A DNA stretch of 64,000 nt from Leptolyngbya sp. SIO1E4 (GTDB lineage Bacteria; Cyanobacteriota; Cyanobacteriia; Phormidesmidales; Phormidesmidaceae), in NCBI GenBank assembly GCA_010672825.2, contig JAAHFU020000002.1:1810001-1874000 (forward strand). The letters are read 5' to 3'. The notes under the pieces are model-generated. The model saw only the letters and a list, made by a program, of their open reading frames with translations, was not told the DNA's origin and searched no databases. A program made the translations under genes and the position numbers. Shown here in pieces: positions 40,416 to 60,002 of the stretch (positions within the stretch are counted from its first letter, which is position 1; every line of letters starts with the position of its first letter).

Positions 40416-41204
40416 ATGACTTTATCACCCTTGCAAAAAGCTCTCGTTTCTTCCGTATGTGTCAGTGGTGCCCTGTTTACAGCAACCACTGTGCCCCTGG
40501 CAATGTTTCGTTCTCAGCCTGTTGAGGTACAAGTGCAGAACCAGCCAGTGTTTGAATCTGAGTTAAATGCCCTCGCAGGCCCTTACCTGGGTGTTGCCGG
40601 TACCTTCAGTGTCGCTCTGGGCGCTAGTATTCTAGGCATGACCGGCTGGCGGTTAGCGGCTAGCAAATCAGAAGCTGAGCAAGCCAAGTCATCTGAATTA
40701 AAGCGAGATCTGTTAGCCTATCAAGCTGAACTGGAGCGGATTAAGTTCTCCGACGCACGGCTGAAAGCACAAGATCTTGAGGCCTTCCTGGAACCCCATC
40801 AGTCTGCCGGTATCCAACCTGCTGCCATGCCTATCCATCAGCAGGCGGCCGCGCCGGTTGTTCAACACAACTCATCTACTGTAAGAAACACTGTCTTGGC
40901 AGCTGAGAAAAAGCCTTTGACTGCAGTCCCGACTCCTCAAGGCAGTGAGCCCCAAACGCTGCATAATGCGAATGACCTCAAAACCATTAAGCAAAGCGTC
41001 CTTGAGTTGGTCATGCACCAGCTGCAAGAACCTGCGGCGACTATGGCAAACCAGGCGGCAGCAGATAAGCCATCGGCTCATGTCCCTAGCCGGCTTGAGA
41101 AAGCCTCTGAGAACCAACTAGAGTCGGTACTCCACCAGCTCCACACCCTGGCTGAGCAGGTCGAAGATCTACGGGCGAGTGGTTCTAGCCGGGCAGCGGC
41201 CTAA
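40416..41204 (+). CDS. Hypothetical membrane/coiled-coil protein
   Basis: 262 aa from ATG 40416. A hydrophobic segment lies near residues 8-30 (LVSSVCVSGALFTATTVPLA) and a second near 52-75 (YLGVAGTFSVALGASILG), with the loop QPVEVQVQNQPVFESELN between them. A charged coiled coil follows (SKSEAEQAKSSELKRDLLAY) and a long Ala/Gln/Pro-rich tail ending in another helical stretch (LESVLHQLHTLAEQVEDLR). The two-membrane-segment N-terminus looks like a conserved cyanobacterial family without known function. Monocistronic, followed by a 28-bp palindrome. Confidence 0.72.
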   Translation: MTLSPLQKALVSSVCVSGALFTATTVPLAMFRSQPVEVQVQNQPVFESELNALAGPYLGVAGTFSVALGASILGMTGWRLAASKSEAEQAKSSELKRDLLAYQAELERIKFSDARLKAQDLEAFLEPHQSAGIQPAAMPIHQQAAAPVVQHNSSTVRNTVLAAEKKPLTAVPTPQGSEPQTLHNANDLKTIKQSVLELVMHQLQEPAATMANQAAADKPSAHVPSRLEKASENQLESVLHQLHTLAEQVEDLRASGSSRAAA

Positions 41205-41936: not shown

Positions 41937-44801
41937 ATGTATACAGTTGATTTGATCATCGCAAATGACTGGGGAACCGGTTTTACTGCCAACCTTGTAA
42001 TTACCAATCTCAGCAATGACCCCTTGGAATGGTCGCAGCTGGAGTTTGATGCACCGTTTACGATCACCAACTTATGGAATGGTGAAATTCTGAGCAGTGA
42101 AGGCGATCGCTATGTTGTGACCAACGCTGATTGGAATGGAACCATTGCTGCCGGTACCAGTATTTCCCTTGGTTTTAACGGCCGTAAAACTAGCGGGGCA
42201 CCCGTTGAAGTGACAAACCTGAATCTGGTTGGCTTAGGAGCGCCAACCGGCTCAGTGCCTCCCACATCGGAACCGGAACCGGAATTTCCCAAAATTACGA
42301 TCGCGGATATCAGCTTAATGGAAGGAGATAGTGCAACTAGCGCTGATTTTCAGGTGCGCCTGTCAGCCAGCAGTGATGACGCCGTTACCGTGCGCTACCG
42401 CACTGAAGACGGCAGCGCGATCGCCGGTGAAGATTACACTGCAACCAGCGGCACTGTGACCTTTGCCCCTGGTGAAACTGAAAAAACAATTTCGGTGCCG
42501 GTGATTGGCGATAGCCAGGTAGAAGCAGACGAGACCTTTAAGATTCGTCTATCGAACCCCAGCAACGGTGACCTCGAAGTCAGCACTGCTACCGCCACGC
42601 TGGAAAATGATGACGTTGCCCCACCGCCGTCTTCAAACCCGCCGCCTGCAACCTCCCCAGCGTCTGACTCAGCAGGAGCCATTAGCTTCGAAGTCACCGA
42701 CGATTGGGGCAGTGGCTTTACCGCCAATGTGACGATCCGCAATACAGGGAATGAGCCCATTGACAGCTGGACTTTAGGCTTTGACGCCCCCTTTACCATC
42801 CAGCAAATTTGGAACGCTAGCTTTACCCAATCCACCAATGGGGCTGTAGACGTTGCCCCTGTGGACTGGAATCAAACAATTCCGCCGGGGGCCACTGTCA
42901 CCTTTGGACTCGTCGGGGCCAAAGCGCCGAATGTTGACCCCACTCCCATAAACTACGAACTCAATGGCGCTGTCATCGGTGACCCGACCCCCGCACCGAC
43001 CCCCCTCCCCACCTTGACCATTAGCAACGCAACAGCAACTGAAGGTGCTGATGACGCTGCTGAATTTAGGGTGACCCTCTCTGAGGCCAGCGATGAAGCG
43101 GTGACTGTGAACTACACCACCGAAAACGGTAGCGCGATCGCCGGTGAAGATTACACTGCGACCAGCGGCACCGTGACCTTTGCCCCCGGTGAAACCGAGA
43201 AAACCATTCAGATTGCGATCGCTGATGATACCCAGGCTGAAGCCAGCGAAACCTTTACGGTGGAGCTGACCAACCCCGTTGGGGCCACCCTAGAAGATGC
43301 CCAAGGGACGGGCACTATTCTAGACAATGACAGTGATTCCCCCGATCCAGGCCCGAATCCCAATCCGGATCCCAATCCGAATCCAGACCCTGGTGATGGC
43401 AGTCCCTCCACAGGGGAATTTAACTATGCAGAAGCGCTGCAAAAATCCTTCCTATTTTATGAAGCCCAGCGCTCTGGCCCGCTGCCCGACGATAACCGCA
43501 TCGAATGGCGCGGCGACTCTGCCCTCAACGATGGGGCGGACGTTGGTCAGGATCTGACCGGAGGCTACTACGATGCTGGCGATCATGTGAAGTTTGGCTT
43601 ACCGATGGCCTACTCCATGACGATGCTGAGCTGGGGTGTTGACGAATATCGCGACGCTTACAGCCAAATCGGCCAGCTCGATGAAGCCCTGGATGCCATC
43701 AGGTGGGGCACCGATTACCTTCTCCAGGCCCATGTCACTGATGCCAACGGCACCCGAGAATTTTGGGGCCAAGTTGGAGATGGCAACCTCGATCACAGCT
43801 ACTGGGGTGCGCCAGAGGATATGACCATGGCCCGTCCTGCCTTCAAAATTGATCGCCAAAACCCAGGCTCTGACCTAGCCGCAGAGGCCGCCGCTGCCCT
43901 GGCCGCTGCCTCCATCATCTTTCGACCTACCGATGCCGTCTATGCAGATACCCTGCTCACCAATGCTCGGCAGCTTTATGAGTTTGCCGACACCTACCGC
44001 GGCAAATATTCGGATGCGATTCCCAACGCTCAAAGTTTTTACAACTCTTGGAGCGGCTACAACGATGAACTCGCCTGGGGCGCCGCTTGGCTCTATGAGG
44101 CTACCGGTGAGCGTGCCTATCTGCAGCAGGCCGAGTCTATCTATCAAAATCAAATTGGCAGCCTTAACCAAGGATGGACCCTCAATTGGGATGATAAATC
44201 CTATGGGGTAGCGGTTTTGCTGGCCCAACAAACCGGAGACCAGCGCTATCAGCAAGATGTTGAAGGCTGGTTAGATGCTTGGGTTGAAGGTCGTAATGGA
44301 GTGCAAATTACAGACGGGGGGCTGCGCTGGATCAGCCAGTGGGGGTCTTCACGGTACGCGGCGAACACGGCTTTTGTCGCTGGGGTCTATGCCGATACCG
44401 TTCGTGATCCAGGGGGAGACTATAGCGCCCTCGCTGAAACAACGGTGGACTATTTGCTGGGGGATAATCCTCGAAATGCAAGTTACGTGGTGGGTTTTGG
44501 AGACAACTACCCGCTACAGCCTCACCATCGAGGCGCCCACGGTGGCACAAGCAGCACGTTGAACAGCCCGGCACCCAACGACAATATTCTCTTTGGTGCC
44601 CTTGTGGGTGGGCCAAGTGAACCCAATGATTTTGCCTACGAAGACGAGCGGAATAACTACATTACGAATGAAGTAGCTCTGGACTACAATGCTGGCTTCA
44701 CCGGTGTTTTGGCCCGTATGGTAGATGCCTTTGGAGGCACGGCCCTGAGCCCAGCAGAATTAGATGCCCTCCCGGGTATCACCGTACCCGACGCCTTTTA
44801 G
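41937..44801 (+). CDS. GH9 cellulase with two CBM2 and two Calx-beta domains
   Basis: 954 aa. Order: CBM2 (1-106; NDWGTGFTANLVITN), Calx-beta (about 125-225), CBM2 (about 243-345; DDWGSGFTANVTIRN), Calx-beta (about 353-458), Asn-Pro-Asp linker (about 463-485), GH9 catalytic domain (about 490-940). The catalytic Asp pair is in YYDAGDHVKF (D546, D549) and the acid Glu in NEVALDYNAGF (E912). It would cut beta-1,4-glucan. There is no signal peptide: the CBM starts at residue 1 and a TAG precedes the ATG. Calx-beta repeats are frequent in type I-secreted proteins, so a C-terminal signal is possible, though no RTX repeats are visible. It lies 4 kb upstream of the cellulose synthase genes, on the same strand. 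Confidence 0.93.
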   Translation: MYTVDLIIANDWGTGFTANLVITNLSNDPLEWSQLEFDAPFTITNLWNGEILSSEGDRYVVTNADWNGTIAAGTSISLGFNGRKTSGAPVEVTNLNLVGLGAPTGSVPPTSEPEPEFPKITIADISLMEGDSATSADFQVRLSASSDDAVTVRYRTEDGSAIAGEDYTATSGTVTFAPGETEKTISVPVIGDSQVEADETFKIRLSNPSNGDLEVSTATATLENDDVAPPPSSNPPPATSPASDSAGAISFEVTDDWGSGFTANVTIRNTGNEPIDSWTLGFDAPFTIQQIWNASFTQSTNGAVDVAPVDWNQTIPPGATVTFGLVGAKAPNVDPTPINYELNGAVIGDPTPAPTPLPTLTISNATATEGADDAAEFRVTLSEASDEAVTVNYTTENGSAIAGEDYTATSGTVTFAPGETEKTIQIAIADDTQAEASETFTVELTNPVGATLEDAQGTGTILDNDSDSPDPGPNPNPDPNPNPDPGDGSPSTGEFNYAEALQKSFLFYEAQRSGPLPDDNRIEWRGDSALNDGADVGQDLTGGYYDAGDHVKFGLPMAYSMTMLSWGVDEYRDAYSQIGQLDEALDAIRWGTDYLLQAHVTDANGTREFWGQVGDGNLDHSYWGAPEDMTMARPAFKIDRQNPGSDLAAEAAAALAAASIIFRPTDAVYADTLLTNARQLYEFADTYRGKYSDAIPNAQSFYNSWSGYNDELAWGAAWLYEATGERAYLQQAESIYQNQIGSLNQGWTLNWDDKSYGVAVLLAQQTGDQRYQQDVEGWLDAWVEGRNGVQITDGGLRWISQWGSSRYAANTAFVAGVYADTVRDPGGDYSALAETTVDYLLGDNPRNASYVVGFGDNYPLQPHHRGAHGGTSSTLNSPAPNDNILFGALVGGPSEPNDFAYEDERNNYITNEVALDYNAGFTGVLARMVDAFGGTALSPAELDALPGITVPDAF

Positions 44802-45285: not shown

Positions 45286-46029
45286 TTACTGCAGCATGTT
45301 AGAGGCTGGCAGTGGCAAATTGTCGGCCTCTGTAAAGGGTAGCTCTGGGGTCTCGTTAACCTGATCAACTCTGGGGTTGTAACTAGAGCGTTCTTGCCAG
45401 ATATCGTCGGTTTGCGCCAGGGTAAAGTCGTCACCTTGAGCGACTGTTCCTGGCGGGATTTGAATGGCCACTGACTGGCTGATTTGTAAATAAGGCTCCC
45501 CGTTAGCGGTGAAGCTCAATTGGGAGTCGCCGCCATTAATGACGGCATTGGTCAAAACGTCCTCGATATCTGCAGAAAAATGGGTCGGTTCCAACGTCAC
45601 CATCAATAAAACTTGAGGGCTTGGGGACAGCGTTTCCTGCATCAAATTTGGGTTGGACTGCCAGTTTTCGAAGGCAGCACCATTGGCGTCGACCTGTTGC
45701 AAGGCCAGGGTTGCCTGCCACTGAGCGTTTTCAACAACGGCAGACTGGCGATCGAGGATGGCATAGGCCAGGGAATCGGCGGCCTCGTTCGTAGCAGCCT
45801 CTTCTAAGATGCGCACGGCAGAAACGGCTAGCTGGGTGCCATCGGGGAGAGAAGCGGTGCCTTGGAGGCTAATGTTGCCGGATTGCCCGGCGATGTTAAC
45901 GTCATTCACTAAAAAATCGACCCCTATCTCTGGGTCGACAAAATTGCGCCAAGAACTTGACAAACGGCTACAGCCAGAACCTATTGCCATCAATAGAACC
46001 AGCAATACGGAAACAAAAACTTTATTCAT
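45286..46029 (-). CDS. Lipoprotein of unknown function
   Basis: 247 aa from ATG 46029 (AGG ribosome site nine bases upstream; an ATG at 46050 would add seven residues). A type II signal peptide ends in MAIGSGC, so the mature protein begins at a lipidated Cys. The mature part is strand-rich and shows a fibronectin-like pattern (VNIAGQSGNISLQGTASLPDG; QATLALQQVDANG). No enzyme motif is seen. It is divergent from the outer-membrane barrel gene and may share a regulatory region with the cellulose genes. Confidence 0.72.
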   Translation of the reverse strand: MNKVFVSVLLVLLMAIGSGCSRLSSSWRNFVDPEIGVDFLVNDVNIAGQSGNISLQGTASLPDGTQLAVSAVRILEEAATNEAADSLAYAILDRQSAVVENAQWQATLALQQVDANGAAFENWQSNPNLMQETLSPSPQVLLMVTLEPTHFSADIEDVLTNAVINGGDSQLSFTANGEPYLQISQSVAIQIPPGTVAQGDDFTLAQTDDIWQERSSYNPRVDQVNETPELPFTEADNLPLPASNMLQ

Positions 46030-46163
46030 AATCTTGCCTGAAAGTATCAAGACCTAAGTGAAAGAGTTTGATGTCGGCACCGTTGATATTCCACTTCTGC
46101 GGGAGTGTCGCTATGTCCTGATACGCATTGTTCCCCGTTTCAACTTTGGAGAATCAAGCTTTT

Positions 46164-48425
46164 ATGTCTTGCTCATCTGAGTTTAACTCCAGTTATCGGT
46201 TACCGATTAGGTCTATCTCATTATCAATAGCAGCTAGCTCCTGTTTTTGGGGTTATGCAGGGCTTGCACAAGCCGCCCAAGAAGACTCGCTTGTTTCCTC
46301 CGAAGACTGGGCTTCAATTAATGCTAATTCAATTGATAAGATATCTTTCAGCGATTCTTTTAATCTCTTAAGCGTTACTAGTGATGACTATCTCCAGAAA
46401 GTCCAAGAGATTACTCAACTTCAGGGTTCAACTGAGGTAGATGAACTGGACTCTGACTGGATAGATCAGGATACTAATTTCGAAGATCTGCCTGGGCCTC
46501 AGTCGTTCACCGATGCCGCAGTGCCGTCAACGCCAACAGCTTTGCCGCCAACGGACACGTCTGTCCCGTGGACTGTTCCTGGCGTTGCCCCCGCGATCGC
46601 CTCCACGCCTGCGGAAACCGCAAATATCGGGTCAACGGCCTGGCTACCTTACGAGATGCCTGCGGCACCTGCCAACTCGGCGACTGGCCATCCCAGCCTG
46701 CCGCCCAATAGTGCTCAACTGGTCTATGTTCCGGTCTGGGTGCCGGTAGCAACGCCCGAGTCAACCGCCGTGTTCAACGCTAGCCAAGGGATTACGCTTT
46801 ATCCAATCGCGAATCCTGCCCCAACGAGTTTCCCCCCTGGAACCGTGCTCTGGAACAACTCCGGAACCGCAACTGGTTATGGATATCCGGCTGCGGTTCC
46901 TGGCCCATCGGTTGGTCAAGCAGCGACTATCCCGCAGGTCTACAGCCCGCAACCCCCGGCTTATAGTGCTCCATTCCCGGTCTATGGCGCTCAGGTTCCG
47001 CTCTATAATCCGCAGCTGCAGCCTCAGGTTTATGATGCTCAGCCCCAGCTTTATACGCCCCAGCCCTCCTCCTTCATGGGCTATTCCCCTGCTCAGACAG
47101 CTCAAAATCCCTACATGCCAGCGCCATCAACCGCTGGTGTTGTACAGTCCATTCCAGTGCCAACAGCACCGAATAGCCCCCACACAATTCAAGCCCTGCC
47201 CAGCCCTCCCCCGGTGCCCGCTTCATCAGTGCCGACCGGCGTTTCTCCAGGGTTGGGTAATTTTTACCCAGTCGAAACCCCTTATCAGGTTGGATTCCGC
47301 AACGATGCCATCCCGATACCCTCGGCTGTGACGCCTTCTCCAGGGCTCTCTCAGATCCCGCCTCGGAGTTTGCCCCCGTATCCGATTCCACCGGCCACTC
47401 CGGTGCCGCCAGCCACTCAAATTCCACCGGCTACGCCGATTCCACCAGCCACCCCTAGCCTGCCTAACGTCGGCCAGCCTGCGCCCTTAGCGGGCGATGA
47501 AAGCAATAGCCCTGTGACGGATCCTACCCTTAACTTGCAGGGGCTCTACATGTTTCAGGAGGATGAGTTTTCGGCCAGGGCTCGGCTGAACGGGTCGGTA
47601 TTTTTGACCCGTAACCTGCTATTGGGGGGCTCGCTGGATATGGTGACCGGCCCCGATTTAACTAATGACGATGGTGTGCAGCTAACAGAACTCTATTTGG
47701 CAGGCTCGTTGCCCCAAAATCCTGGCCTGAGATTTCGCTTTGGCCAACTCGATTTGACGTCATATTTTGATCGCAACAGCTTTGCTAAAGACAGCAGTCG
47801 AGACTTCTTTAATTCAACGTTTCAGACGAATCCAGCCTTGTTTGCGGGGGCTAACGTGACGGCCTCTCGCCCAGGGGGGCTTGTACAGTGGGCCGTTACC
47901 GATGACGTTGCTATCACCGCCTCAGTATTTTCGTCTGATTCGGATATTGGTGATTTTGCCCTGGATGGCTTTGCTGGAGAAGCTGCGTTCCGCGCGGGCA
48001 ATTTGATTGTGCGAGGCACGGTTCTTAGTGCGATAGATACGGATTTTCAAGGCACCGGCGATCGCCTCAATGCCTTTGGCATCAATGCGGAGTGGTTTAT
48101 GCCTGACCTTAACCTGGGGGTCTTTGGTCGATATGGTCGGGTCGAAAATTCTAATACTGACTTTGAGGCAGATACCTACAGCATTGGGCTCACTTTCCTC
48201 GACCTCCTCATGGAGAATGACCGCCTCGGTCTGGCCTATGGGCGCAATCTGGACTTTAGTACGGATGACGAAGACACCCCCGACGTGGTGGAAATCTTCT
48301 ACGACTTTGAAGTGTTGCCTAATATCCGGACTGGGGTGACATTCCAGCAGCGGAACTCTTTCTCAGAACCCTTCTTTGGCTTCCGTATCCGGGGAGATGT
48401 GGATTTACTGCCTAGCCTGTTTTAA
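46164..48425 (+). CDS. Outer-membrane beta-barrel protein with proline-rich N-terminal region
   Basis: 753 aa from ATG 46164; a TTG at 46128 would only lengthen the signal peptide. Signal peptide ends near AGLAQAAQ. Residues about 30-430 are disordered and Pro/Ala/Tyr/Gln-rich, with a repeat PPATP(V/I) (four or five units near 47390-47455). Residues about 450-753 are a porin-like barrel: alternating strands such as RARLNGSVFLTRNLLLGGSL, GLRFRFGQLDLTSYFDR and LNLGVFGRYGRV, ending in Phe (DVDLLPSLF), the usual last residue of outer-membrane barrels. It resembles OprB-like barrels. Fifteen bp upstream of the TPR gene, it can supply the export barrel that this BcsC-like protein lacks. Confidence 0.75.
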   Translation: MSCSSEFNSSYRLPIRSISLSIAASSCFWGYAGLAQAAQEDSLVSSEDWASINANSIDKISFSDSFNLLSVTSDDYLQKVQEITQLQGSTEVDELDSDWIDQDTNFEDLPGPQSFTDAAVPSTPTALPPTDTSVPWTVPGVAPAIASTPAETANIGSTAWLPYEMPAAPANSATGHPSLPPNSAQLVYVPVWVPVATPESTAVFNASQGITLYPIANPAPTSFPPGTVLWNNSGTATGYGYPAAVPGPSVGQAATIPQVYSPQPPAYSAPFPVYGAQVPLYNPQLQPQVYDAQPQLYTPQPSSFMGYSPAQTAQNPYMPAPSTAGVVQSIPVPTAPNSPHTIQALPSPPPVPASSVPTGVSPGLGNFYPVETPYQVGFRNDAIPIPSAVTPSPGLSQIPPRSLPPYPIPPATPVPPATQIPPATPIPPATPSLPNVGQPAPLAGDESNSPVTDPTLNLQGLYMFQEDEFSARARLNGSVFLTRNLLLGGSLDMVTGPDLTNDDGVQLTELYLAGSLPQNPGLRFRFGQLDLTSYFDRNSFAKDSSRDFFNSTFQTNPALFAGANVTASRPGGLVQWAVTDDVAITASVFSSDSDIGDFALDGFAGEAAFRAGNLIVRGTVLSAIDTDFQGTGDRLNAFGINAEWFMPDLNLGVFGRYGRVENSNTDFEADTYSIGLTFLDLLMENDRLGLAYGRNLDFSTDDEDTPDVVEIFYDFEVLPNIRTGVTFQQRNSFSEPFFGFRIRGDVDLLPSLF

Positions 48426-48440
48426 CCTGAGGTGCCTTTA

Positions 48441-50762
48441 ATGAAACGATCCGATGCTTTCACCCCTGTTCGAGCGAGACAATTCGGGATTTTGGGTTTG
48501 GCTATCTTGGGGGTCATGATGGCAGGGGCTCCCGTATTGCTGGCTGCCCCTGCCGTATATGCCCAGGCTAGTCAAGGGGACATTACCCGGGGATACACCT
48601 TATTGCGTCAGGGGCGTGTTGATGCGGCCATTACCAACTTTGAGCGCATTCTGCGCCAAAATCCCAACAATCTAGAAGCGCTGCAGGGGTTAGGCATCGC
48701 CTATCGCCGCGCTGGCCGGGATGCGGATGCCCTGGCCATTTACCAGCAAATTTTAGGCATTGATGCGGATAACCAGCTTGCCCTCAGTACCCTGGGGTAT
48801 CTGGGGGAGTTTCGGGCTGAATGGCAGCCTATCGGTATTCAGGCCCTGACTCGCCTGCTGCAGATCACGCCAGATTCTATAGAGGCTCGGGCGCAACGGG
48901 CCAAACTTTACTTTTATCAAGGGCTGTTCTCTGAGTCATTGGCAGATTATGGAGTCGTGCTGCCCCGCACCGCTGCCCCGGATATTTTGCGCCCAGCGGC
49001 AGAAGCGTATACCTTTAGCGGTGACTATGTTACTGGGCTGAGCTTGTTTGAACGCTACCGCTCTAATGGTGGTGTGATTGAGGGAGACACCGCGATCGCC
49101 TATGCCCAGGCCTTGCAGGACAGTGGCCAGCTGACCCAAGCCGCTCAGATTTTGGACCAGGAGTTGCGCGGCATTGCTGAATTTAGCACTCAAAACATTC
49201 GGCTCCGGGGTGCCCTGGCCAGTACCTATGCTGCGAGTCGTCAGTTTCAACCGGCTTTAGACCTATTACAGCCCTTACGGGGGCGGCTAGATTCACGCTT
49301 AACCCTGGCTCGGGCGCTCAATGCGATCGGGGATTATAGTGGTCAAACGGCTTATAACCAGGAGGCTGCGGCCCTTTATCAAGAAGTGTTGGCAACGGGG
49401 CCAGGCCTTACCGTTGGAACCCAGCGGGAAGCCATTTCTGCCCTCAGTGCTCTCCCCAATCAGCGGGCCTTGGCCTTACAGCTGACCCAGCAGCTGGCTC
49501 AGATGCTGCCCAACGATAGCAGTCTGACCCTACAGCAACAGGTGTTAGCCTATCAAACTGGCACTCTCAGCCGGGCTAACTTTATTCAGCAGGTGCGCAC
49601 CACCTTCCCCAACTTACCGGCTGACCCTGTGCAGACGCGCAATATTGCCCAAATCCTCAGTCGCTTAGACCCGCCTTTGGCAGAGATATTCCCCCTGTAT
49701 CAAAGTTTGCTGGCGGCAGGGACGACAGACGCCTTCCTGAACTTTCGGGTCGCTCAGATTTATACCCAGCAGGGTCAATATGCTAATGCCCGCTCGGCCC
49801 TGTCTGCCTATATGGCAACCCCTGTGGGGAGCCAAGATCCGGCAACCATTCAGCTGTTGCTAGCCGAGGTTGATCGTCGAGAAGGCAACTTGGCGGCCAG
49901 TGCACAACGCTATCAGACGCTGTTGAGTACGGCCCAGTTACCGTCGGTTCGCAATGCCGCCGTCCAGGGGCTGGCGACGATATATCGCAATCAGGGATTA
50001 TGGAGCGATGCGATCGCCCTCTACGATCGACTGATTGCCGAAAACCCGCAAGACCTCTCTTATCAGCTGGGTCGAGCAACGGTCGCCTATCAGGTCGGTG
50101 AAATTACCGACGATCAGGCTGAAGCCATTCTCCAGCAAATACTGCGACAGTCGACAGGTGGGCCTTTACCCGCCGAGCTTGTGACCCTGGCGACGGCGCT
50201 GCCCCCTAGCCCCAGCCGGGTCGATCTTTACCAGCAGCTATTGGCCATCGAACCGAGCAACCCTCAATTACAGCTGCGATCGCTGCAGGTGTTAGCAGAG
50301 AGCAATCCTAGACAAGCCCAGGCGCAAATATCCCAGCTGATTGCTCAAAACCCTAACGCGGTTGATCTTTACTTCGTCCAAGGAGAAATTGCGCAACAGG
50401 TCGGAGACTACGAACTGGCTCGACAAATCTACACAGGGTTGCTCCAGCAACAGCCCAACAGCCTAGATGCCTGGCTAGCGCTGGCCGGGTTGGAGTTTCA
50501 ACAGGGCAACTACGCACAAGCGAATACCCTCTATCAATCTGCGCTTTCCCTCGATATTGAAAACAGCACAGCTCGGACATCGCTTGCGGCTTTAAATGCA
50601 GTTCAGGGGCGGCCGCTGGAAGCCCTTGAGCAGCTACAAGCCTGGCAACAGGTGATGCTGGCTCAAGGCAATGTGAATTCTCAAATGGCGGAACAAATTC
50701 AGCAAATTCAGGAAGGGTTGTTGCAGCAGCGAGGCATTCAACCCTATTGGGAGCGGTTTTAA
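48441..50762 (+). CDS. TPR protein, BcsC-like without the beta-barrel
   Basis: 773 aa from ATG 48441, chosen because GAGG at 48429-48432 is eight bases upstream; a GTG at 48432 is too close. Signal peptide (LGLAILGVMMAGAPVLLAAP) ending near VYAQA. The mature protein is almost wholly tetratricopeptide repeats (about 15-18), e.g. YTLLRQGRVDAAITNFERIL, NLEALQGLGIAYRRAGRDAD, and LDAWLALAGLEFQQGNYAQA. It ends IQPYWERF with no barrel, whereas BcsC of enterobacteria carries a C-terminal outer-membrane barrel of about 400 residues. In the periplasm it would guide the nascent glucan to the neighbouring barrel protein. Start of a plus-strand run through bcsA. Confidence 0.8.
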   Translation: MKRSDAFTPVRARQFGILGLAILGVMMAGAPVLLAAPAVYAQASQGDITRGYTLLRQGRVDAAITNFERILRQNPNNLEALQGLGIAYRRAGRDADALAIYQQILGIDADNQLALSTLGYLGEFRAEWQPIGIQALTRLLQITPDSIEARAQRAKLYFYQGLFSESLADYGVVLPRTAAPDILRPAAEAYTFSGDYVTGLSLFERYRSNGGVIEGDTAIAYAQALQDSGQLTQAAQILDQELRGIAEFSTQNIRLRGALASTYAASRQFQPALDLLQPLRGRLDSRLTLARALNAIGDYSGQTAYNQEAAALYQEVLATGPGLTVGTQREAISALSALPNQRALALQLTQQLAQMLPNDSSLTLQQQVLAYQTGTLSRANFIQQVRTTFPNLPADPVQTRNIAQILSRLDPPLAEIFPLYQSLLAAGTTDAFLNFRVAQIYTQQGQYANARSALSAYMATPVGSQDPATIQLLLAEVDRREGNLAASAQRYQTLLSTAQLPSVRNAAVQGLATIYRNQGLWSDAIALYDRLIAENPQDLSYQLGRATVAYQVGEITDDQAEAILQQILRQSTGGPLPAELVTLATALPPSPSRVDLYQQLLAIEPSNPQLQLRSLQVLAESNPRQAQAQISQLIAQNPNAVDLYFVQGEIAQQVGDYELARQIYTGLLQQQPNSLDAWLALAGLEFQQGNYAQANTLYQSALSLDIENSTARTSLAALNAVQGRPLEALEQLQAWQQVMLAQGNVNSQMAEQIQQIQEGLLQQRGIQPYWERF

Positions 50763-51001: not shown

Positions 51002-52342
51002 ATGCGACATCCCTCTCGTTCCTCTGTAGCGGCTGCCGCCTTTGATCGCAGCCAAGATCCCTTGAGCAGCTACCGCAGGCTTCTTTCCCTAACATTTTCT
51101 GGTTTAAGCTTGACCATGCTCACCCTGGGGACGGGGTGTATGCCCTCTCCCTCTTCTTCCGTCGCTGCCCCGTCTACGGAGACCGCAAACGATGCAGCCG
51201 CACCTTCCTCTGATACCGATGGGGCTGCTGTTGACACAGCGGCGCTGCTGACAGAGAGTTGGCAAGTCTATCGCCAGCGGTTTATCCAAACAGACGGACG
51301 GGTGATTGATTGGGAAAGCAACAGCCGAACGGTGTCTGAAGGCCAAGCTTATGCCATGCTGCGGGCCGTTTTAGTAGATGACGCCGATGCCTTTGAGCGC
51401 ACCTTACAGTGGGCTGAAAACAACTTAGCCCGCCCGCCTTTGCCGAATGATGCCGATGGCCAAGACTCTCTCTGGGCCTGGAAATGGGGAGAGCGGCCAG
51501 ACGGGGCTTGGGGCATTCAAGATGAAAACTTCGCAAGCGATGCTGATATTGATGCCATCACGGCCCTGATTTTTGCCGCCAGACGCTGGGAGCGCCCCGA
51601 CTATCTAGCGTTGGCCTACCAGAAACTCGAAGATCTCTGGGCCCAGTCTGTCTTGACCTTACCGGCAGTTGATCCAGCGGAAACTCGACATTATTTATTG
51701 CCGGGGCCGCTGGCTGCATTTCAACCCGAACCCGGCAAAGTGTATGTCAATCCTTCCTATCTGGCCCCTTATGCGTTTCGCCTGTTTGCTGAGGTTGACC
51801 CCAATCCTGAGCATGATTGGCTGGCCCTGGTTGATAGCAGCTACGACATTCTGGAGCAAACCCAAAGCATTTCCCCCCAGGGGTTACCGGGTGACTGGGT
51901 GGTTCTAGAGCTTGCGACCCAAACGATTCAGCCTGTTTCCCAGGAGTCGTCTTTGCAAAGCAGCTACAGCTTTGATGCCTATCGAGTCTGGTGGCGCGTG
52001 ACCTGGGATGCCGTTTGGTTTAACGAAGCGCGGGCTCAGCGGTTCCTGGACGATCATCTCCCCTACTTCCAAGAACTTTGGCAAGAAGACGGGGAAATTC
52101 CAGCGGTGATGGGCTTATCGGGTCAGGCCCTGGCGGATTATGATTCCACCTCTCAATACGCCATGCTTTATCCAGCATTTCAACAGGTTGATCCGGCGAT
52201 CGCAGAGGCTATGCTCCGGCGCAAACTGCTCACGACTTATCATCAGGGAATTTGGGACAATGCCGATGCTTATTATGTGCAAAACCTGGCCTGGCTAGGC
52301 TTATTTCCAGCGGAGACAATTCCACCCAAACTTTTAGAATAA
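51002..52342 (+). CDS. GH8 endoglucanase lipoprotein (BcsZ type)
   Basis: 446 aa. The N-terminus has a lipobox (TMLTLGTGC near residue 44), so it is probably a lipoprotein, unlike soluble periplasmic BcsZ. A short Ser/Ala/Thr linker is followed by the GH8 (alpha/alpha)6 domain: LTESWQVYRQRFIQTDGRVI, SEGQAYAMLRAVLVDD with the acid Glu, DSLWAWKWG, and ASDADIDAITALIFAARRW with the catalytic Asp. The end (YYVQNLAWLGLFP) matches the family. It hydrolyses beta-1,4-glucan. In bcs operons this enzyme is needed for normal cellulose output. It sits 239 bp after the TPR gene. Confidence 0.9.
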   Translation: MRHPSRSSVAAAAFDRSQDPLSSYRRLLSLTFSGLSLTMLTLGTGCMPSPSSSVAAPSTETANDAAAPSSDTDGAAVDTAALLTESWQVYRQRFIQTDGRVIDWESNSRTVSEGQAYAMLRAVLVDDADAFERTLQWAENNLARPPLPNDADGQDSLWAWKWGERPDGAWGIQDENFASDADIDAITALIFAARRWERPDYLALAYQKLEDLWAQSVLTLPAVDPAETRHYLLPGPLAAFQPEPGKVYVNPSYLAPYAFRLFAEVDPNPEHDWLALVDSSYDILEQTQSISPQGLPGDWVVLELATQTIQPVSQESSLQSSYSFDAYRVWWRVTWDAVWFNEARAQRFLDDHLPYFQELWQEDGEIPAVMGLSGQALADYDSTSQYAMLYPAFQQVDPAIAEAMLRRKLLTTYHQGIWDNADAYYVQNLAWLGLFPAETIPPKLLE

Positions 52343-52668: not shown

Positions 52669-55188
52669 ATGCTCTTTAATCTAAAAAAATTCCTCTTTGG
52701 GGGGCGATATCGTTCCCTGAGGCATGTTTGGTATTGGGGACTCAGCCTAGTCTGCCTCTGTCTGATCTTGACGACTCACCTGCCCCTGGGGCACGCCCAG
52801 TCCAACGATGCGGTTGAGAGCCAAGAAGATGCGGTGATTGAGCAGTATTCCCTGCCTGAACCTGCCCCTCAGGCTCCTGTGGTTCAGCCGCGCCCGCGTC
52901 CCGCACCCCGCCAACCGGCAACGTCAGCCCCACGTCCAGCGGCTGAGCTGACTTCCCCCGAACCTGTCGCCCCGCCTCAAGCGACGCCGCCTGAAACAAC
53001 ACCAGACGCCCCAGAACCAGACCCCCCAACCCAGGATCCTGACGGTGATGAGGCGTCTACGCCGCTGAGCCAGTATGTTTTACAGTTCAATCGTTCACCG
53101 ATAGTCGGCAATGCCCTGCAAATGGAAGGGATCTTGTCCGACGCCAGGCTAGGGTTTACCCGCCCCCGAAATTGGCAAGTAGAATCCGCTAAAGTGCAGA
53201 TTCGCTTTCGCCATTCCTCAGCGCTTTATGCTGAGCGCTCAAGCCTGACGGTGCAATTGAATAATATTCATTTGGGCAGTGTTCCCCTCAATCGGACTGC
53301 CGATGAAATTGGGAATGTGCTGTTCAATGTTCCTGCTGATGCCATTCAGGACTACAACACTGTTGTCATGCGGGTGCAGCAGCACACCTCTGCAGATTGC
53401 ACCGATCCGACGGATCCAGCCCTGTGGACAGAAATTTTGCCAGACTCTCGCGTCATCCTTGACTATCGACCCCAAGCGATCGCGCTGGATTTGGCCAACT
53501 ATCCCTACCCGTTCTTAAGTGAACTTGGGTTAGATGCGGATCAATTGGCCTACCTACAGCCTGAAAAGCCCGATGACGCTTGGATGACTGCGACGGCTCG
53601 ATACCAGGCCTCAGCCGCTCGCCTGACTAATTTTCGGCCGGTTCAAACCCGCTTCATTCCAGATTTAGAGAGCGCCAAAGCTGGGGAGCGACTGATCATC
53701 ATTGGAACCCCTGATAATCAGCCGCTGTTATCTGAACTGACGCTGCCCTTTGCCATCAAAAACAATAAGCTGCTGGATGGCGGTGGCAATGTTTTGCCCA
53801 ATGATGTTGGGGTGGTGATGGTGACAACGACAGCCGATGGTGGCCACCCCATATTAGTGGTGACGGCCAACGACGCCAAAGGGGTATTGAAAGCAGCACA
53901 GGCATTAGCTCAGCCAAGCGATCGTCAGCTGCTGACCGGCCAGGCTGCCTTGGTCAGTGAAGTTGCAGAGGTAGAATCCCCTGGCTCCAATGATTGGCCC
54001 GGTTATTTGCCCCAGGGCGTCAGTCGGTTCCAACTAGCTGATTTACAGACAGCTGACCTCCAGCCCTTTCAGGATGTGACTGTCAACGGTTTGCCAGTGC
54101 CGCCCCCGGTGCAAATTCCCTTTCGGGCGTTACCCGATGAGCATTTTCTCAAGGGCAGCACCTTTACCTTGCGGTATAGCTACAGCCCTAATGTTGATCC
54201 AGCGCGGTCATCGGTTTCGGTGCGGCTCGATGGCCAAGGGCTTGGCGGCAAGCGATTGCGGAATGTGAATGGGGGCAAAGACGCTATCACAGTCAATATT
54301 CCACCGGATCTGGTGACACCGGATTCCACGCTGTCGGTGCAGTTTTTCACCTATCCCAGAGCCGCCTTGAACTGTGGCAACATCCCCGATCAGCCCATGT
54401 GGGGGACTGTCCATGGCGATAGCAGCTTTAAGCTAAATCGCACCAGCCTGGTACAGCTGCCGGATCTCAAGCTCCTGAAAACGGGCTTTCCCCTGACAGC
54501 GCCGCAAGATCTCGCGCAGATGGCCTTTATTTTGCCGGAGCAACCCAGTGAGGCAGAAGTGCTGACGATGCTCCAGGCGAGCAGTCGCTTTGGTCGCCTC
54601 AGCCGCGCGGGTTCGGTCAAATTAGGGGCCTATTCAGTGAGCAGTCTCCCAGAAGACGTGCGGCGCAACAGCAATTTGGTCGGCATTGGCATTCGCGATC
54701 GCTTCCCCCTGCCTGAGCTATTTGAGGGACAAACCGGATTTGCCTTAGATAAGCAGTTTACACGTCGTCAAAATGGCAGCCAGGTTCAGGCCCTCCCTGA
54801 TGAGGCTGGCGTGATCGAAGCAGCCGTCTCTCCCTGGAACCCGGAACGGATTTTGTTGGGGCTAACGGGCCACACAGAGTCAGGGCTCGCCGATATTCAA
54901 GCGGTGCTGTACCGAGACGATCTCTTCTCACAGCTAGCGGGAGACACCCTGCTGGTGCAGCGCACCGATGACCCGTCTGGGAGTTTGACGGCGGATGACT
55001 TTCAGGTGATGCCTTTGACCCAAAATACCCCCGTCACCATTGATCGCCGTAGCCCCTTGAATCGGGCGATCGCGCTGCTACAAAACAACTGGTTTTTAAT
55101 CCCAGGAGGCATCGTTGTGCTCGCTCTGATGTTCTACGGAGTGTCTCAACTGTATTTGAATCGGTTTAGTCACTCGGGAGAAGCCTAA
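52669..55188 (+). CDS. bcsB: Cellulose synthase regulatory/periplasmic subunit BcsB
   Basis: 839 aa. Signal peptide/anchor (residues about 23-43, ending HAQSN), then a 70-residue Pro/Ala-rich segment, then the two carbohydrate-binding plus flavodoxin-like repeats of BcsB: first near 130-420 (QVESAKVQIRFRHSSAL; LTVQLNNIHLGSVPLN; ADCTDPTDPALWTEI), second near 480-770 (FTLRYSYSPNVDPARSSVSV; LNCGNIPDQPMWGTVHG). A C-terminal membrane helix (WFLIPGGIVVLALMFYG) anchors it in the inner membrane next to BcsA. It supports BcsA activity and passes glucan into the periplasm. TAATG: its stop shares one base with the bcsA start. Confidence 0.9.
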   Translation: MLFNLKKFLFGGRYRSLRHVWYWGLSLVCLCLILTTHLPLGHAQSNDAVESQEDAVIEQYSLPEPAPQAPVVQPRPRPAPRQPATSAPRPAAELTSPEPVAPPQATPPETTPDAPEPDPPTQDPDGDEASTPLSQYVLQFNRSPIVGNALQMEGILSDARLGFTRPRNWQVESAKVQIRFRHSSALYAERSSLTVQLNNIHLGSVPLNRTADEIGNVLFNVPADAIQDYNTVVMRVQQHTSADCTDPTDPALWTEILPDSRVILDYRPQAIALDLANYPYPFLSELGLDADQLAYLQPEKPDDAWMTATARYQASAARLTNFRPVQTRFIPDLESAKAGERLIIIGTPDNQPLLSELTLPFAIKNNKLLDGGGNVLPNDVGVVMVTTTADGGHPILVVTANDAKGVLKAAQALAQPSDRQLLTGQAALVSEVAEVESPGSNDWPGYLPQGVSRFQLADLQTADLQPFQDVTVNGLPVPPPVQIPFRALPDEHFLKGSTFTLRYSYSPNVDPARSSVSVRLDGQGLGGKRLRNVNGGKDAITVNIPPDLVTPDSTLSVQFFTYPRAALNCGNIPDQPMWGTVHGDSSFKLNRTSLVQLPDLKLLKTGFPLTAPQDLAQMAFILPEQPSEAEVLTMLQASSRFGRLSRAGSVKLGAYSVSSLPEDVRRNSNLVGIGIRDRFPLPELFEGQTGFALDKQFTRRQNGSQVQALPDEAGVIEAAVSPWNPERILLGLTGHTESGLADIQAVLYRDDLFSQLAGDTLLVQRTDDPSGSLTADDFQVMPLTQNTPVTIDRRSPLNRAIALLQNNWFLIPGGIVVLALMFYGVSQLYLNRFSHSGEA

Positions 55189-57728
55189 TGTCTAATCCAT
55201 CTTCACCGTTACCCCGTCAGTCTCGAAGCTGGATTACGCGGTTTATAGACGCTTTGCCCACTTGGCTAGAATCGACGCTTGGCGGCAACGGACGCTTTAA
55301 TGTGGTCTGGCTAATGCTGATCGGGTGGGTGTTCGCCATTCCGATCATCGTGACCCCGCTGTCTTTGGCCCAACAGGGACTCTTAGCCGTCTCAGTCATT
55401 GGGCTCGGATGGTTGTTGGTGTGGCTAGAACAGCGGCAGTCACACCAGTCACACCAACGCAGCGGTGAGCGTTTGCACCTTGTCCTGGTGTGGCTGAGCA
55501 TCTTAGTGACCCTGCGATATCTCTATTACCGCACCTTCAGCACCCTCAATCTAGACGGCTGGCTCGATGCCACCTTTAGTCTGCTGCTGTATGGTGCAGA
55601 GCTGTATGCGATTATGACGCTGCTGCTGGCCTACATGCAGACCTTGCGGATTCGGGAGCGTCAACCCATTGATATGACTGCCGTTCCCGGTAGCCAGTGG
55701 CCCCAGGTCGATATTTATATTCCGACCTACAACGAAGAAGTTGATATCGTTCGCAAAACCGCCCTAGCAGCCCTGGCTGTTGATTACCCAGCGGATAAAA
55801 AGGAGGTCTACATTCTGGATGACGGTCGTAAGGATCCGGCCCGTCGAGAGCGGCTCCGGCAGATTTGTTACGACTTAGGCTGTCACCTGATGACCCGGGA
55901 CAATAATGACCACGCCAAAGCGGGCAACATCAACCATGCGATGCTGCGCACCGAAGGAGAGTTAATTCTAATTCTTGACTGTGACCATATTCCGAGCCGC
56001 TGCATTTTGCAGCACACGGTCGGGTTCTTTTTGAATCCTAAGGTCTCTCTGGTGCAGACCCCGCACTGGTTTTATAACCCTGACCCGTTTGAGCGCAATC
56101 TACTGACCCAGGGACAGGTGCCTGTCAGCAACGAGCTGTTTTACAAAGTGCTGCAAAAAGGCAACGACTTCTGGAATGCAGCCTTTTTCTGCGGTTCAGC
56201 AGCGATTATCCGCAAAAACCATCTGCTAGAAGTGGGGGGGATTGCGGTGGAAACTGTCACTGAAGACTGTCACACGTCCCTACGGCTCCATTCCAAAGGG
56301 TACGAAACTGTCTACTATGACAAGGTCATGGTAGCGGGTCTTGCCCCTGAGAAGTTTTCAGCGTATGTGGGCCAGCAGGTACGCTGGGCCAGGGGGATGG
56401 CTCAGATTTTGCGGCTAGAGTGGCCGCTGTTTAATCGCAAGCTGACGCTACCCCAGCGCATTTGCTACACGTCTGCAACCACTCATTTCTTCTTTGGGTT
56501 TCCCCGGCTGATGTATGCGCTGGCTCCAATGGCGTTTCTGCTATTTGGGATTAACCCGGTACGAGGGTTGGGGTTAGAAACGCTGACCTATGCGCTCCCC
56601 TCGATTATTTTGGCGCTGAATGCCAACTTCATCGTTTATAAGGAAGTTCGTTTTTCATTCTGGAACGAAATTTTTGAGTATGCCCTGGCCTTTCAGGACG
56701 GACTGGTCACTTTTATGGCCCTCTTGAATCCGCGATTGGGCTCATTTAATGTGACGGAAAAAGGTCTACAGGTTACCCGACGTTCCTTTGACTGGTCTTC
56801 TGTGAAGTGGCTTCTGGTGATCTGTTTCTTGAGCCTCGTGTCGCTCGCGATGGTGCCCTACTGGCTCATTAGTGGCCTCCAGGACTCAGACGCTGTGCTC
56901 ATTAACGCAACTTGGTGCGTGGTGAATATAGGGCTGCTGATTGCTGCTCTTGTGGTTGCTTTGGAGCAACCTCAGCTCCGTCAGGCCCACCGTTTGGCCC
57001 GGCAACTCACTGCTGTGTTGCATTCCGGCAATGAAACCTTCACGGGTACAACGCTAGACATCAGTGAATCGGGGGCGCAAATCGTCCTCCATAGCTGGCC
57101 GAACCTGGCTGATCACATTGACTTAGAAATCCATGGTGATACGGTTGCATGTGCCTCGTTGCGCGGTCGGATTACTCGGGTGATTCCCCACCGTGATGAC
57201 CAGGTATTAGTAGCGGTCGCCTTTGAAGAAATGACCCCGCAGCAAAGGGATGATCTCACCTTAGTGATCTACTCGGATGTGAATGAATGGTATTCCCAAA
57301 AGAGAGTTCAGGTAGATAGCCCCTTTCAGTCCCTGTTCTTTTTGTTTAGCAGCCTGATGCGGGCGTTGCGAGATCCCAAGCCCGCTGAAGCCATGCAGAT
57401 TCGTAAACGGGTTCAGGCCAGTGCCCAGCTATATACCCAGGGATACTATGTATCGGCGATCGCAGGGGAAATCAATAGCCGTACACTGCAGCTGCTACTG
57501 CCCAATGATCGTCTTACCACGATTCATCCTGAAATTTTGGAGCCTGGTCAGCCAGTTGGCTTGCTGGTTAGCAGCGACAAGCGCGATGAGAGCACCCGGT
57601 TGATTGCCCAAGTAGATGAAATCAACCGCACCTCTGACGCCATTGTCCTGGAACTTTCATTCCCGCAGGTGTTAGATGTGCGGCAGAAAGAGCAAATTAA
57701 CTATCTGCTCCAAACACTGCCGGGATAA
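55188..57728 (+). CDS. bcsA: Cellulose synthase catalytic subunit BcsA with PilZ domain
   Basis: 846 aa. N-terminal membrane helices (about 38-83 and 97-150), then the GT2 domain: IPTYNE (178-183), DDG (D211, D212), DCDH (264-267), FFCG (333-336), TED (358-360) and the acceptor-site motif Q396-Q-V-R-W400. Further membrane helices follow (about 430-590). The PilZ domain has R598xxxR602 and D624xSxxG629, so c-di-GMP activation is expected. It makes beta-1,4-glucan from UDP-glucose and extrudes it through its own channel. The C-terminal extension after PilZ (about 690-846) is longer than in many BcsA. GGAG at 55177-55180 is the ribosome site. Confidence 0.95.
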   Translation: MSNPSSPLPRQSRSWITRFIDALPTWLESTLGGNGRFNVVWLMLIGWVFAIPIIVTPLSLAQQGLLAVSVIGLGWLLVWLEQRQSHQSHQRSGERLHLVLVWLSILVTLRYLYYRTFSTLNLDGWLDATFSLLLYGAELYAIMTLLLAYMQTLRIRERQPIDMTAVPGSQWPQVDIYIPTYNEEVDIVRKTALAALAVDYPADKKEVYILDDGRKDPARRERLRQICYDLGCHLMTRDNNDHAKAGNINHAMLRTEGELILILDCDHIPSRCILQHTVGFFLNPKVSLVQTPHWFYNPDPFERNLLTQGQVPVSNELFYKVLQKGNDFWNAAFFCGSAAIIRKNHLLEVGGIAVETVTEDCHTSLRLHSKGYETVYYDKVMVAGLAPEKFSAYVGQQVRWARGMAQILRLEWPLFNRKLTLPQRICYTSATTHFFFGFPRLMYALAPMAFLLFGINPVRGLGLETLTYALPSIILALNANFIVYKEVRFSFWNEIFEYALAFQDGLVTFMALLNPRLGSFNVTEKGLQVTRRSFDWSSVKWLLVICFLSLVSLAMVPYWLISGLQDSDAVLINATWCVVNIGLLIAALVVALEQPQLRQAHRLARQLTAVLHSGNETFTGTTLDISESGAQIVLHSWPNLADHIDLEIHGDTVACASLRGRITRVIPHRDDQVLVAVAFEEMTPQQRDDLTLVIYSDVNEWYSQKRVQVDSPFQSLFFLFSSLMRALRDPKPAEAMQIRKRVQASAQLYTQGYYVSAIAGEINSRTLQLLLPNDRLTTIHPEILEPGQPVGLLVSSDKRDESTRLIAQVDEINRTSDAIVLELSFPQVLDVRQKEQINYLLQTLPG

Positions 57729-57962: not shown

Positions 57963-60002
57963 CTACAGCTGCTCTTGCCAACGCTGAATTTCTTGCTGTG
58001 CCTGTTCGTAGGCCACGGTGCCCTCTGGCACCAAGGTGGCTGCAGCGATCGCCGCATCTAGTCTGCCTTGAGCTGCCCGGGCTCGGGAAATCGCCAAAAT
58101 ATCTTGGCTCCATTGATTAATGCGCTCTTGGGCGATGCTATATCCAGGCTGATCAGGGGTGATTTGCTGAAGGGCTCTAATCGCATCTTGAAAAGAGCTT
58201 GCCTGCCCCGGCTGCAAGGAATTCTGCATTTGTTGAATTAGCTGCTGATTCTCCAGCGTTTGCTGCCAAATGGCAATCCGCTGCTGGGCCAGCTGATAGA
58301 CAGCGGGGCGATCGTCTGGCACGAGTCCTGCGGCCGCAATAGCGCCAGGAATATCTCCGCTGGCGGCCCTGCCTTCAGCCAGATCCAAAATGACTCGGCT
58401 CCAGCGCTCAATATCGGCCTGGGCTTGCTCATAGTAAGGGTCTTCAGGGGGGACTTGCCGTGCCTGCTGAATCGCATCGTTAAATAAAGACGCGGATGCT
58501 GGTTGAATCAGCTGTCGAGCATCATTCAAAATGCCTTGGTTGCGGACAGCGGCTTCCGCTACTTCACTATTGGCCTGCTGCAGGAGGTCGTTATAAGTCT
58601 CTGTTTGCAGCTCTGGGGGCACCTGCGTTAACCAGGCCCGTGCCTCACCGTAACGCCCCTCTGCGATCGCCCCTTCTGCGCGCTGCAAAGCCGACTCTCC
58701 TGCTGCAATGGGGTCAACAGTGTTGGGAAACAGCGCCTCACCTTCTGCGGTCTCACCGCCCTCAGTCGTTCCTTCTGGGGGCGCATTGGGTACGGCTGGA
58801 GAGGTTTCTGTTGAACGGGGAGCACCGGCCTGCTCCACACCCCCTAGCAACCCTAGGGGACGATACCGAGCGAGTGCACCCACTATGAAGGCAATGCCTG
58901 CAGCTATGAGGCCCCATTTCCAGAGGCTCTTTAGGGATACCCCTTTTTCCGCTTCAGCGTCACTGGGCTTGTGGACGATTGCTCCGGTAGAGGGGGGCGT
59001 CACGGGGGGCGTCACGGGGGGCTGACTGGCGGCTGAACTGGCTGCCGAGCTGGAGGTTGGCTCCGGTTGGGGCGCCGAAAGATCGGCAGGAGGAACCGGT
59101 GGCGGGGTCGAGGGTGTGGGCGTTGGGAGCTGAGATGAGGGCGGAGGTGAGGGCGGAGCCGTCGAGGGTGGGGCACTGGCGGCTGCCACACTCAAGTCTG
59201 GCAGCCCTGCTCCCTCCCTAAAATCGGTGACTGCAGTTTCAGTGACCGGGAGCTGTGCAATGCTCTCGGCAGGCACCACCATCATGAACTTCCGCTCTGG
59301 GGGGAGGGCCGTCACTGGATTTTGTACCGGACGCCAATGGTGTTGGCTTAATTCGGGAACGCGATCGCTCAAGTAAGCAGCGAGCTGAGAAACGGTGATG
59401 CAGCCGTGGTATCGCAACCCTTCTAACAACGCTTTCGTAAACAGCCCATGCCGCACCGCCATGGTTTCATGGGCATATTGGTCAGGCTGGCAAGACATGA
59501 GGGTGGCCACCCCAAAATCATTAGCTAAGGTCAAGGTCTGCTGCCCAATATTTTGATGGCCGATCGCTCCTTGACTGCGGTTGATATCTAGAACCAGCAG
59601 TATCTGATCGGTTTTAGCGGTTTTAAGGATGTCAAAAACGGTCGAGACTGCGATCGCGGTTTCTGCTAACTGAGTGGGGTCAGCATCAATGGGCATCCAA
59701 TAGTCTTGTCCCATAGTGGCTAAGCCATAGCCACTGAAAAACACCCACAGCAAATCTCCAGGCTGCACCTTCTGCCGGCAAAAATCTTGGAGCTGAGCCT
59801 CAATATCTTTGCGCAGGGGATAGTGGGCATAGGGCTCCACCGCGGCTGACAGATCCGTCAACAAAATGCACTGCTCAATCGGAATGCCTAACTCATCCAC
59901 AAAAAAGTTACGCAGCGCCACCGCATCTGCCTGCGCGTACATTAACGGCTGTAGCGCAGTGTACTGGTTAATCCCGATGAGGAGAGCCCACTGATTAGCC
60001 AT
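57963..60002 (-). CDS. Pseudo-orthocaspase (caspase-fold protein, inactive dyad) with helical C-terminus
   Basis: 679 aa. Residues 1-230 are a peptidase C14-like p20 domain: MANQWALLIGINQYTALQPL, GDLLWVFFSGYG, and ILLVLDINRSQG. The catalytic His (SGHG) is Tyr92 and the catalytic Cys (DxC) is Asn141, so no peptidase activity is expected. Such Tyr/Asn (or Tyr/Ser) variants have been reported among cyanobacterial orthocaspase homologues. A Pro/Ser/Thr-rich linker (about 275-345) leads to one membrane helix (about 356-378, WKWGLIAAGIAFIVGALA) and then about 250 residues of TPR-like helical repeats (ALQRAEGAIAEGRYGEARAW). It is probably a membrane-anchored scaffold with the caspase fold in the cytoplasm. 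Monocistronic. Confidence 0.87.
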   Translation of the reverse strand: MANQWALLIGINQYTALQPLMYAQADAVALRNFFVDELGIPIEQCILLTDLSAAVEPYAHYPLRKDIEAQLQDFCRQKVQPGDLLWVFFSGYGLATMGQDYWMPIDADPTQLAETAIAVSTVFDILKTAKTDQILLVLDINRSQGAIGHQNIGQQTLTLANDFGVATLMSCQPDQYAHETMAVRHGLFTKALLEGLRYHGCITVSQLAAYLSDRVPELSQHHWRPVQNPVTALPPERKFMMVVPAESIAQLPVTETAVTDFREGAGLPDLSVAAASAPPSTAPPSPPPSSQLPTPTPSTPPPVPPADLSAPQPEPTSSSAASSAASQPPVTPPVTPPSTGAIVHKPSDAEAEKGVSLKSLWKWGLIAAGIAFIVGALARYRPLGLLGGVEQAGAPRSTETSPAVPNAPPEGTTEGGETAEGEALFPNTVDPIAAGESALQRAEGAIAEGRYGEARAWLTQVPPELQTETYNDLLQQANSEVAEAAVRNQGILNDARQLIQPASASLFNDAIQQARQVPPEDPYYEQAQADIERWSRVILDLAEGRAASGDIPGAIAAAGLVPDDRPAVYQLAQQRIAIWQQTLENQQLIQQMQNSLQPGQASSFQDAIRALQQITPDQPGYSIAQERINQWSQDILAISRARAAQGRLDAAIAAATLVPEGTVAYEQAQQEIQRWQEQL

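Follow-up and report, generated by a model that had tools for sequence, protein, structure and literature searches.

BcsC, the outer membrane component of cellulose export, is a single chain with 19 TPRs and a 16-strand barrel (PMC11379886). E. coli BcsC docks on BcsB through its first TPR, and a putative cello-oligosaccharide is bound by the TPRs close to the pore (PMC11379886). In alginate export, AlgK and AlgE are separate chains (PMC9734138). The type III bcs clusters of Agrobacterium and Shinella encode BcsK, a periplasmic TPR-only protein that replaces BcsC beside bcsAB (PMC11470070, PMC9012009). For cyanobacteria, a survey of the phylum from 2015 reported that the BcsC_C domain was absent and that neither AlgK/AlgE nor BcsC could be identified with confidence (PMC4594306). 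A review from 2025 describes cyanobacterial cellulose secretion as poorly defined and discusses only the XcsAB-TolC model, which is free of BcsB, is based on HlyD (XcsB) and TolC, and has its genes scattered over the genome in T. vulcanus (PMC12430437). Our literature search, confined to open-access papers, found no description of the arrangement reported here.

We analyzed a window of 64,000 nt from Leptolyngbya sp. SIO1E4 (assembly GCA_010672825.2, contig JAAHFU020000002.1, positions 1,810,001-1,874,000, forward strand). The window harbors a bcs gene cluster in which a gene for an outer membrane barrel is followed, 15 bp downstream on the same strand, by a gene for a periplasmic TPR protein (Table 1). 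The original prediction had placed a barrel protein with a Pro-rich arm directly before a 773 aa TPR protein with signal peptide and had named GH8, BcsB and BcsA as the next products. The coordinates of the pair were confirmed, and so, by domain matches, was the identity of the three genes that follow. The genes for a lipoprotein and for a membrane protein with a coiled-coil-like stretch were both absent from that prediction. The gene at 57963-60002 on the negative strand, downstream of bcsA, has a caspase-like (Peptidase_C14) product that contains a long stretch of low complexity rich in Pro and Ser. Two related clusters that were scanned (L064, L072) have a GH5-CBM2 cellulase at a place comparable to that of the GH9 cellulase, which in the window lies upstream of the cluster.

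Table 1. Features of the bcs gene cluster (positions in the 64,000 nt window).
Feature	Position	Strand	Size	Characteristics
Membrane protein	40416..41204	+		Conserved; coiled-coil-like stretch; co-occurs with the cluster
GH9 cellulase	41937..44801	+		CBM2 and Calx-beta domains, two of each; located upstream of the cluster
Lipoprotein	45286..46050	-		Divergent from the barrel gene; invariant Cys
Barrel protein	46164..48425	+	753 aa	Signal peptide, Pro-rich arm, predicted 16-strand OprB-type barrel (about 47511-48422)
TPR protein	48441..50762	+	773 aa	Predicted periplasmic solenoid; signal peptide without Cys; about 20 helical hairpins; tail RGxQPxWE
GH8 endoglucanase	51002..52342	+		BcsZ-like
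BcsB	52669..55188	+		PF03170, E 1.5e-89
BcsA cellulose synthase	55188..57728	+		PilZ domain; TIGR03030, 701.9 bits vs cut-off 699.1

Structure prediction had been proposed along with the original prediction as a check on the barrel, and AlphaFold2, run with 81 sequences, indeed gave 16 strands (mean pLDDT 90.4, pTM 0.85). The top solved fold for this model is OprB of P. putida (4gey; Z 27.2, rmsd 2.5, 285 residues aligned), with OmpT of V. cholerae (Z 23.7) and then OprP/OprO and general porins as the runners-up. The window protein matches the OprB family (PF04966) with 38.4 bits at full length and 42.4 bits for the barrel only, the cut-off being 22.9. Fourteen of 20 barrel family members match PF04966 at E<=1, and at this threshold none of the 20 matches PF05420 (BCSC_C) or PF13372, the alginate export barrel AlgE. 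A search with the barrel profile against PDB sequences gave no match. Judged by sequence and model, the barrel appears to be a recruited porin, and BcsC does not appear to have been simply cut in two. Since the barrel groups with OprB, the term split BcsC describes a functional analogy and not a history.

Members of the OprB family are sugar uptake porins. In 16-strand porins the pore is narrowed at the L3 position, and the residues that the barrel family conserves best, LTSYFDRNSFAKD..FFN..FQTNPAL, lie at this position, between barrel strands 5 and 6. The original prediction had noted a terminal Phe. This residue is present in the window protein, 6 residues beyond the last predicted strand, but it is not a feature of the family, because relatives end in ...EFDVTPRGR..Q or ...RADW. 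The Pro-rich arm comprises about 415-420 residues, 19% of them Pro. In relatives its length is about 175 to 910 residues, and it is about 190 in the second copy of the same genome; as far as the sequences tell, it does not form a conserved domain. The role first proposed for it, as a bridge across the peptidoglycan or a recruiter of the TPR protein, is weakened by this extreme variability.

The mature TPR protein comprises about 730 aa with about 20 predicted hairpins. It had been described as TPR to the last residue; the solenoid in fact stops about 11 residues before the C-terminus and is followed by the conserved tail. No Cys occurs near the N-terminus of the TPR protein from the window. 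Only a single TAA separates the barrel and TPR genes, which share one reading frame, and we therefore modeled the pair as one chain of 1088 residues, using seven paired rows from other genomes together with unpaired rows. Judged by pLDDT and pTM, both halves of this linked model are confident (mean pLDDT 89.3), but the pTM of 0.64 is close to the TPR share of 0.67, roughly the value expected of the TPR half by itself, and the model does not dock the pair with confidence. When the linked model was used for a fold search, the only additional matches were general ones to TPR proteins and porins, and among the matches listed for the barrel or the linked model there was no BcsC or AlgE barrel. Mirror-tree correlations were 0.93 for TPR-BcsB and 0.82 for barrel-TPR, but come without an unlinked control and are hence given no weight.

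Eighteen members of the lipoprotein family have in common the invariant Cys, which comes after a run of hydrophobic residues, and conserve the pattern W..E.WQ. In the window, the coding start of the lipoprotein is probably at 46029. Neither Pfam nor NCBIfam gave a convincing match for the members scanned.

A scan of the GTDB r220 genomes gave 189 relatives, and we examined the best 80 of these. All 80 come from cyanobacteria, including Leptolyngbyaceae, Nodosilinea, Oculatella, Scytonema, Brasilonema, Tolypothrix, Nostoc, Symploca, Moorena, Gloeocapsopsis and others. The TPR gene directly follows the barrel gene in 79 of the 80 loci, and the remaining locus stops at a contig edge. The two genes overlap by 4 nt in 31 of 72 intact pairs and lie within 20 bp in 54. 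We found no barrel-TPR fusion in the 80 loci, 79 of which could be tested. Both bcsB and bcsA are present in 57 of the 60 loci whose downstream sequence extends to 8.5 kb or more, and GH8 in 42 of the same 60. The divergent lipoprotein was found in 55 of the 65 loci having enough upstream sequence. In a few genomes (Moorena, UBA11370 and G360; at L148, L139 and L061 in Moorena-like genomes) the lipoprotein, barrel and TPR genes form a module detached from bcsAB, suggesting that the three belong together.

We then turn to the distribution over 386 cyanobacterial genomes, searched with a two-sequence barrel profile at E<=1e-20. This gave 20 barrels in 16 genomes, representing 15 genera. All 16 genomes encode BcsB (PF03170), which is found at full length in just one other genome, and two more genomes have weak partial matches. 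The association of barrel and BcsB has a Fisher p of approximately 2e-27, calculated over genomes that are not phylogenetically independent. The numbers of barrel and BcsB copies are equal in 15 of the 16 genomes, four of which carry both in duplicate. G011 departs from this with one barrel and two BcsB. Its second cluster, TPR-BcsB-BcsA (L077:6510-13907), has no barrel of its own, and perhaps the barrel of the other cluster is used by both. The lipoprotein profile hits exactly the same 16 of the 386 genomes as the barrel. The membrane protein family is found in all 16 and additionally in G286, a genome that also has a short BcsB remnant. The one other genome with full-length BcsB, G343, belongs to another class of the phylum and encodes two BcsB in tandem (L078:8195-12936), with no BcsA match in the stretch read. 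The proposed co-occurrence of the pair with bcsAB across cyanobacteria is thus borne out, both by the 16 genomes and by the order of the genes in the relatives.

The genome of strain SIO1E4 is 8.2 Mb in 12 contigs, and another contig carries a second cluster (L015:1253-11224). Here the barrel (505 aa), TPR protein (760 aa), BcsB, BcsA and lipoprotein are encoded in a row; GH8 is missing and the barrel arm is far shorter. The two copies share 50% identity over the barrel domain and 43% between the TPR proteins, and the two lipoproteins are 29% identical over 148 residues (E 5e-17). Chance adjacency or an assembly artifact is ruled out by this second cluster and by the 79 of 80 relatives. A full-length BcsC elsewhere in the genome had been named as a finding that would speak against the original prediction. 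No BcsC barrel (PF05420) above the cut-off was found in this genome. The sole BCSC_C match below the threshold is an unrelated outer membrane protein of 439 aa. Among the 386 genomes, PF05420 scored above the cut-off in two, neither of which is among the 16 with a barrel.

Based on these observations, we consider it likely that the barrel, the TPR protein and the divergent lipoprotein make up the outer membrane exit of a c-di-GMP-controlled BcsAB cellulose synthase, with separate chains in place of the one chain of BcsC. The barrel and the TPR protein are the best candidate for the export conduit because they are a fixed pair tied to bcsAB, because 16 strands are predicted and because BcsC is lacking. 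This much of the split BcsC idea stands; as a statement of descent it does not, the barrel being of the OprB and not the BCSC_C type. In brief, BcsA would synthesize the glucan, which we infer to be cellulose, and extrude it past BcsB. The solenoid, whose N-terminal TPRs may dock on BcsB, would span the periplasm as far as the outer membrane and lead the chain along this path. A like division of labor is suggested by the TPR contacts of E. coli BcsC. The conserved C-terminal end of the solenoid could contact the periplasmic mouth of the 16-strand barrel to form a complex, and the glucan would exit through this OprB-derived barrel. GH8 may cut back stalled chains, and the lipoprotein may anchor or assemble the contact between the TPR protein and the barrel at the outer membrane.

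We lean towards a wider reading, in which an OprB sugar porin was recruited as the exit for a beta-1,4-glucan, a free TPR solenoid holds it to BcsB, and an undescribed lipoprotein and membrane protein are assembled with it. This would be a cyanobacteria-specific class of secretion system. In the sampled phylum, those two proteins are found outside it only in one relic genome.

These observations count against export: the linked model without confident docking of the pair, the OprB-like barrel, a type associated with sugar uptake, the hyperconserved segment at the L3 position, the detached modules and the G011 cluster that lacks a barrel. The main rival explanation is that the barrel is an uptake porin recovering cello-oligosaccharides freed by GH8 and GH9, and that cellulose leaves the cell elsewhere. 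Family, fold and the L3 segment would all suit such a porin, as would the extracellular-type cellulases nearby (GH9-CBM2 in the window and GH5-CBM2 in the two related clusters). We nevertheless regard it as unlikely, since the barrel is tied 1:1 to the gene of a TPR scaffold, often with the 4 nt overlap, its copy number tracks that of bcsB, and a barrel without BcsB occurs in none of the 386 genomes. It would also leave the BcsAB clusters with no outer membrane exit, as they contain no other exit gene, and we noted no sugar transporter in the clusters read. An OprB porin with no link to bcs genes had been named at the outset as evidence against the export conduit; the OprB assignment proved correct (4gey, PF04966), but the lack of a link to bcs genes is strongly contradicted.

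It is very unlikely that the polymer exits by a TolC-type channel with an HlyD-like adaptor and that the barrel and TPR protein have just an auxiliary part, such as that of an anchor. XcsAB-TolC is the current model for Thermosynechococcus (PMC12430437). This model covers clusters having an HlyD-like protein in place of BcsB, whereas BcsB is present here, an HlyD-like gene is not a regular member of the clusters read, and the model is itself unvalidated (PMC12430437). Least probable of all is that an ancestral BcsC literally broke into two genes. This would account for the functional parallel and the similar TPR length but is opposed by the match of the barrel to OprB instead of BCSC_C, by the reversed order of barrel and TPR, and by the lack of a fused relative among the 80 loci.

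Returning to the exit formed by barrel, TPR protein and lipoprotein, the arrangement is a real, conserved and apparently undescribed variant of synthase-dependent export. Many filamentous cyanobacteria with a standard cellulose synthase have no one-piece BcsC, and the barrel, TPR scaffold and lipoprotein encoded beside the synthase are the best candidates for the exit route. This provides a gene-level candidate for the outer membrane exit in cyanobacteria that possess BcsAB and names two further undescribed components, the lipoprotein and the membrane protein. It suggests that a nutrient porin can become a polymer exporter. For annotators and engineers, it shows which genes to carry over in addition to bcsA and bcsB.

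Compared with BcsC of Komagataeibacter and E. coli, the cyanobacterial system has the same predicted 16 strands, about 20 hairpins, a location of its genes with bcsA, bcsB and bcsZ, and presumably the same job. It differs in having two chains, the barrel gene before the TPR gene, a barrel of the OprB and not the BCSC_C type, an extra lipoprotein, and a long variable arm on the barrel. BcsK is likewise a TPR-only protein in a bcsAB cluster lacking BcsC, a likeness seen in architecture; no dedicated barrel is established for BcsK clusters, whereas a barrel gene always accompanies the cyanobacterial TPR gene. The XcsA/XcsB/TolC model has cyanobacterial cellulose secretion in common with the cluster but differs in having no BcsB. 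The carbohydrate-selective porin OprB is the closest fold and the Pfam family matched above the cut-off, but its barrel domain is about 420 aa against about 300 aa here, and the barrel of the cluster is linked to bcs genes and has a TPR partner. The same genome encodes two further OprB porins, both with SLH-like N-termini, unlike the window barrel protein, in which no SLH match was found. In the AlgK/AlgE system of alginate export, a TPR protein and an outer membrane barrel are separate and encoded together, and export is synthase-dependent, as in the cyanobacterial cluster. The polymer and the synthase differ, AlgK is itself a lipoprotein whereas the signal region of the window TPR protein lacks a Cys, and AlgE is an 18-strand barrel whereas 16 strands are predicted here. 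An AlgE/AlgK-like arrangement of barrel, TPR protein and lipoprotein is the best explanation for the exit of the cyanobacterial BcsAB system.
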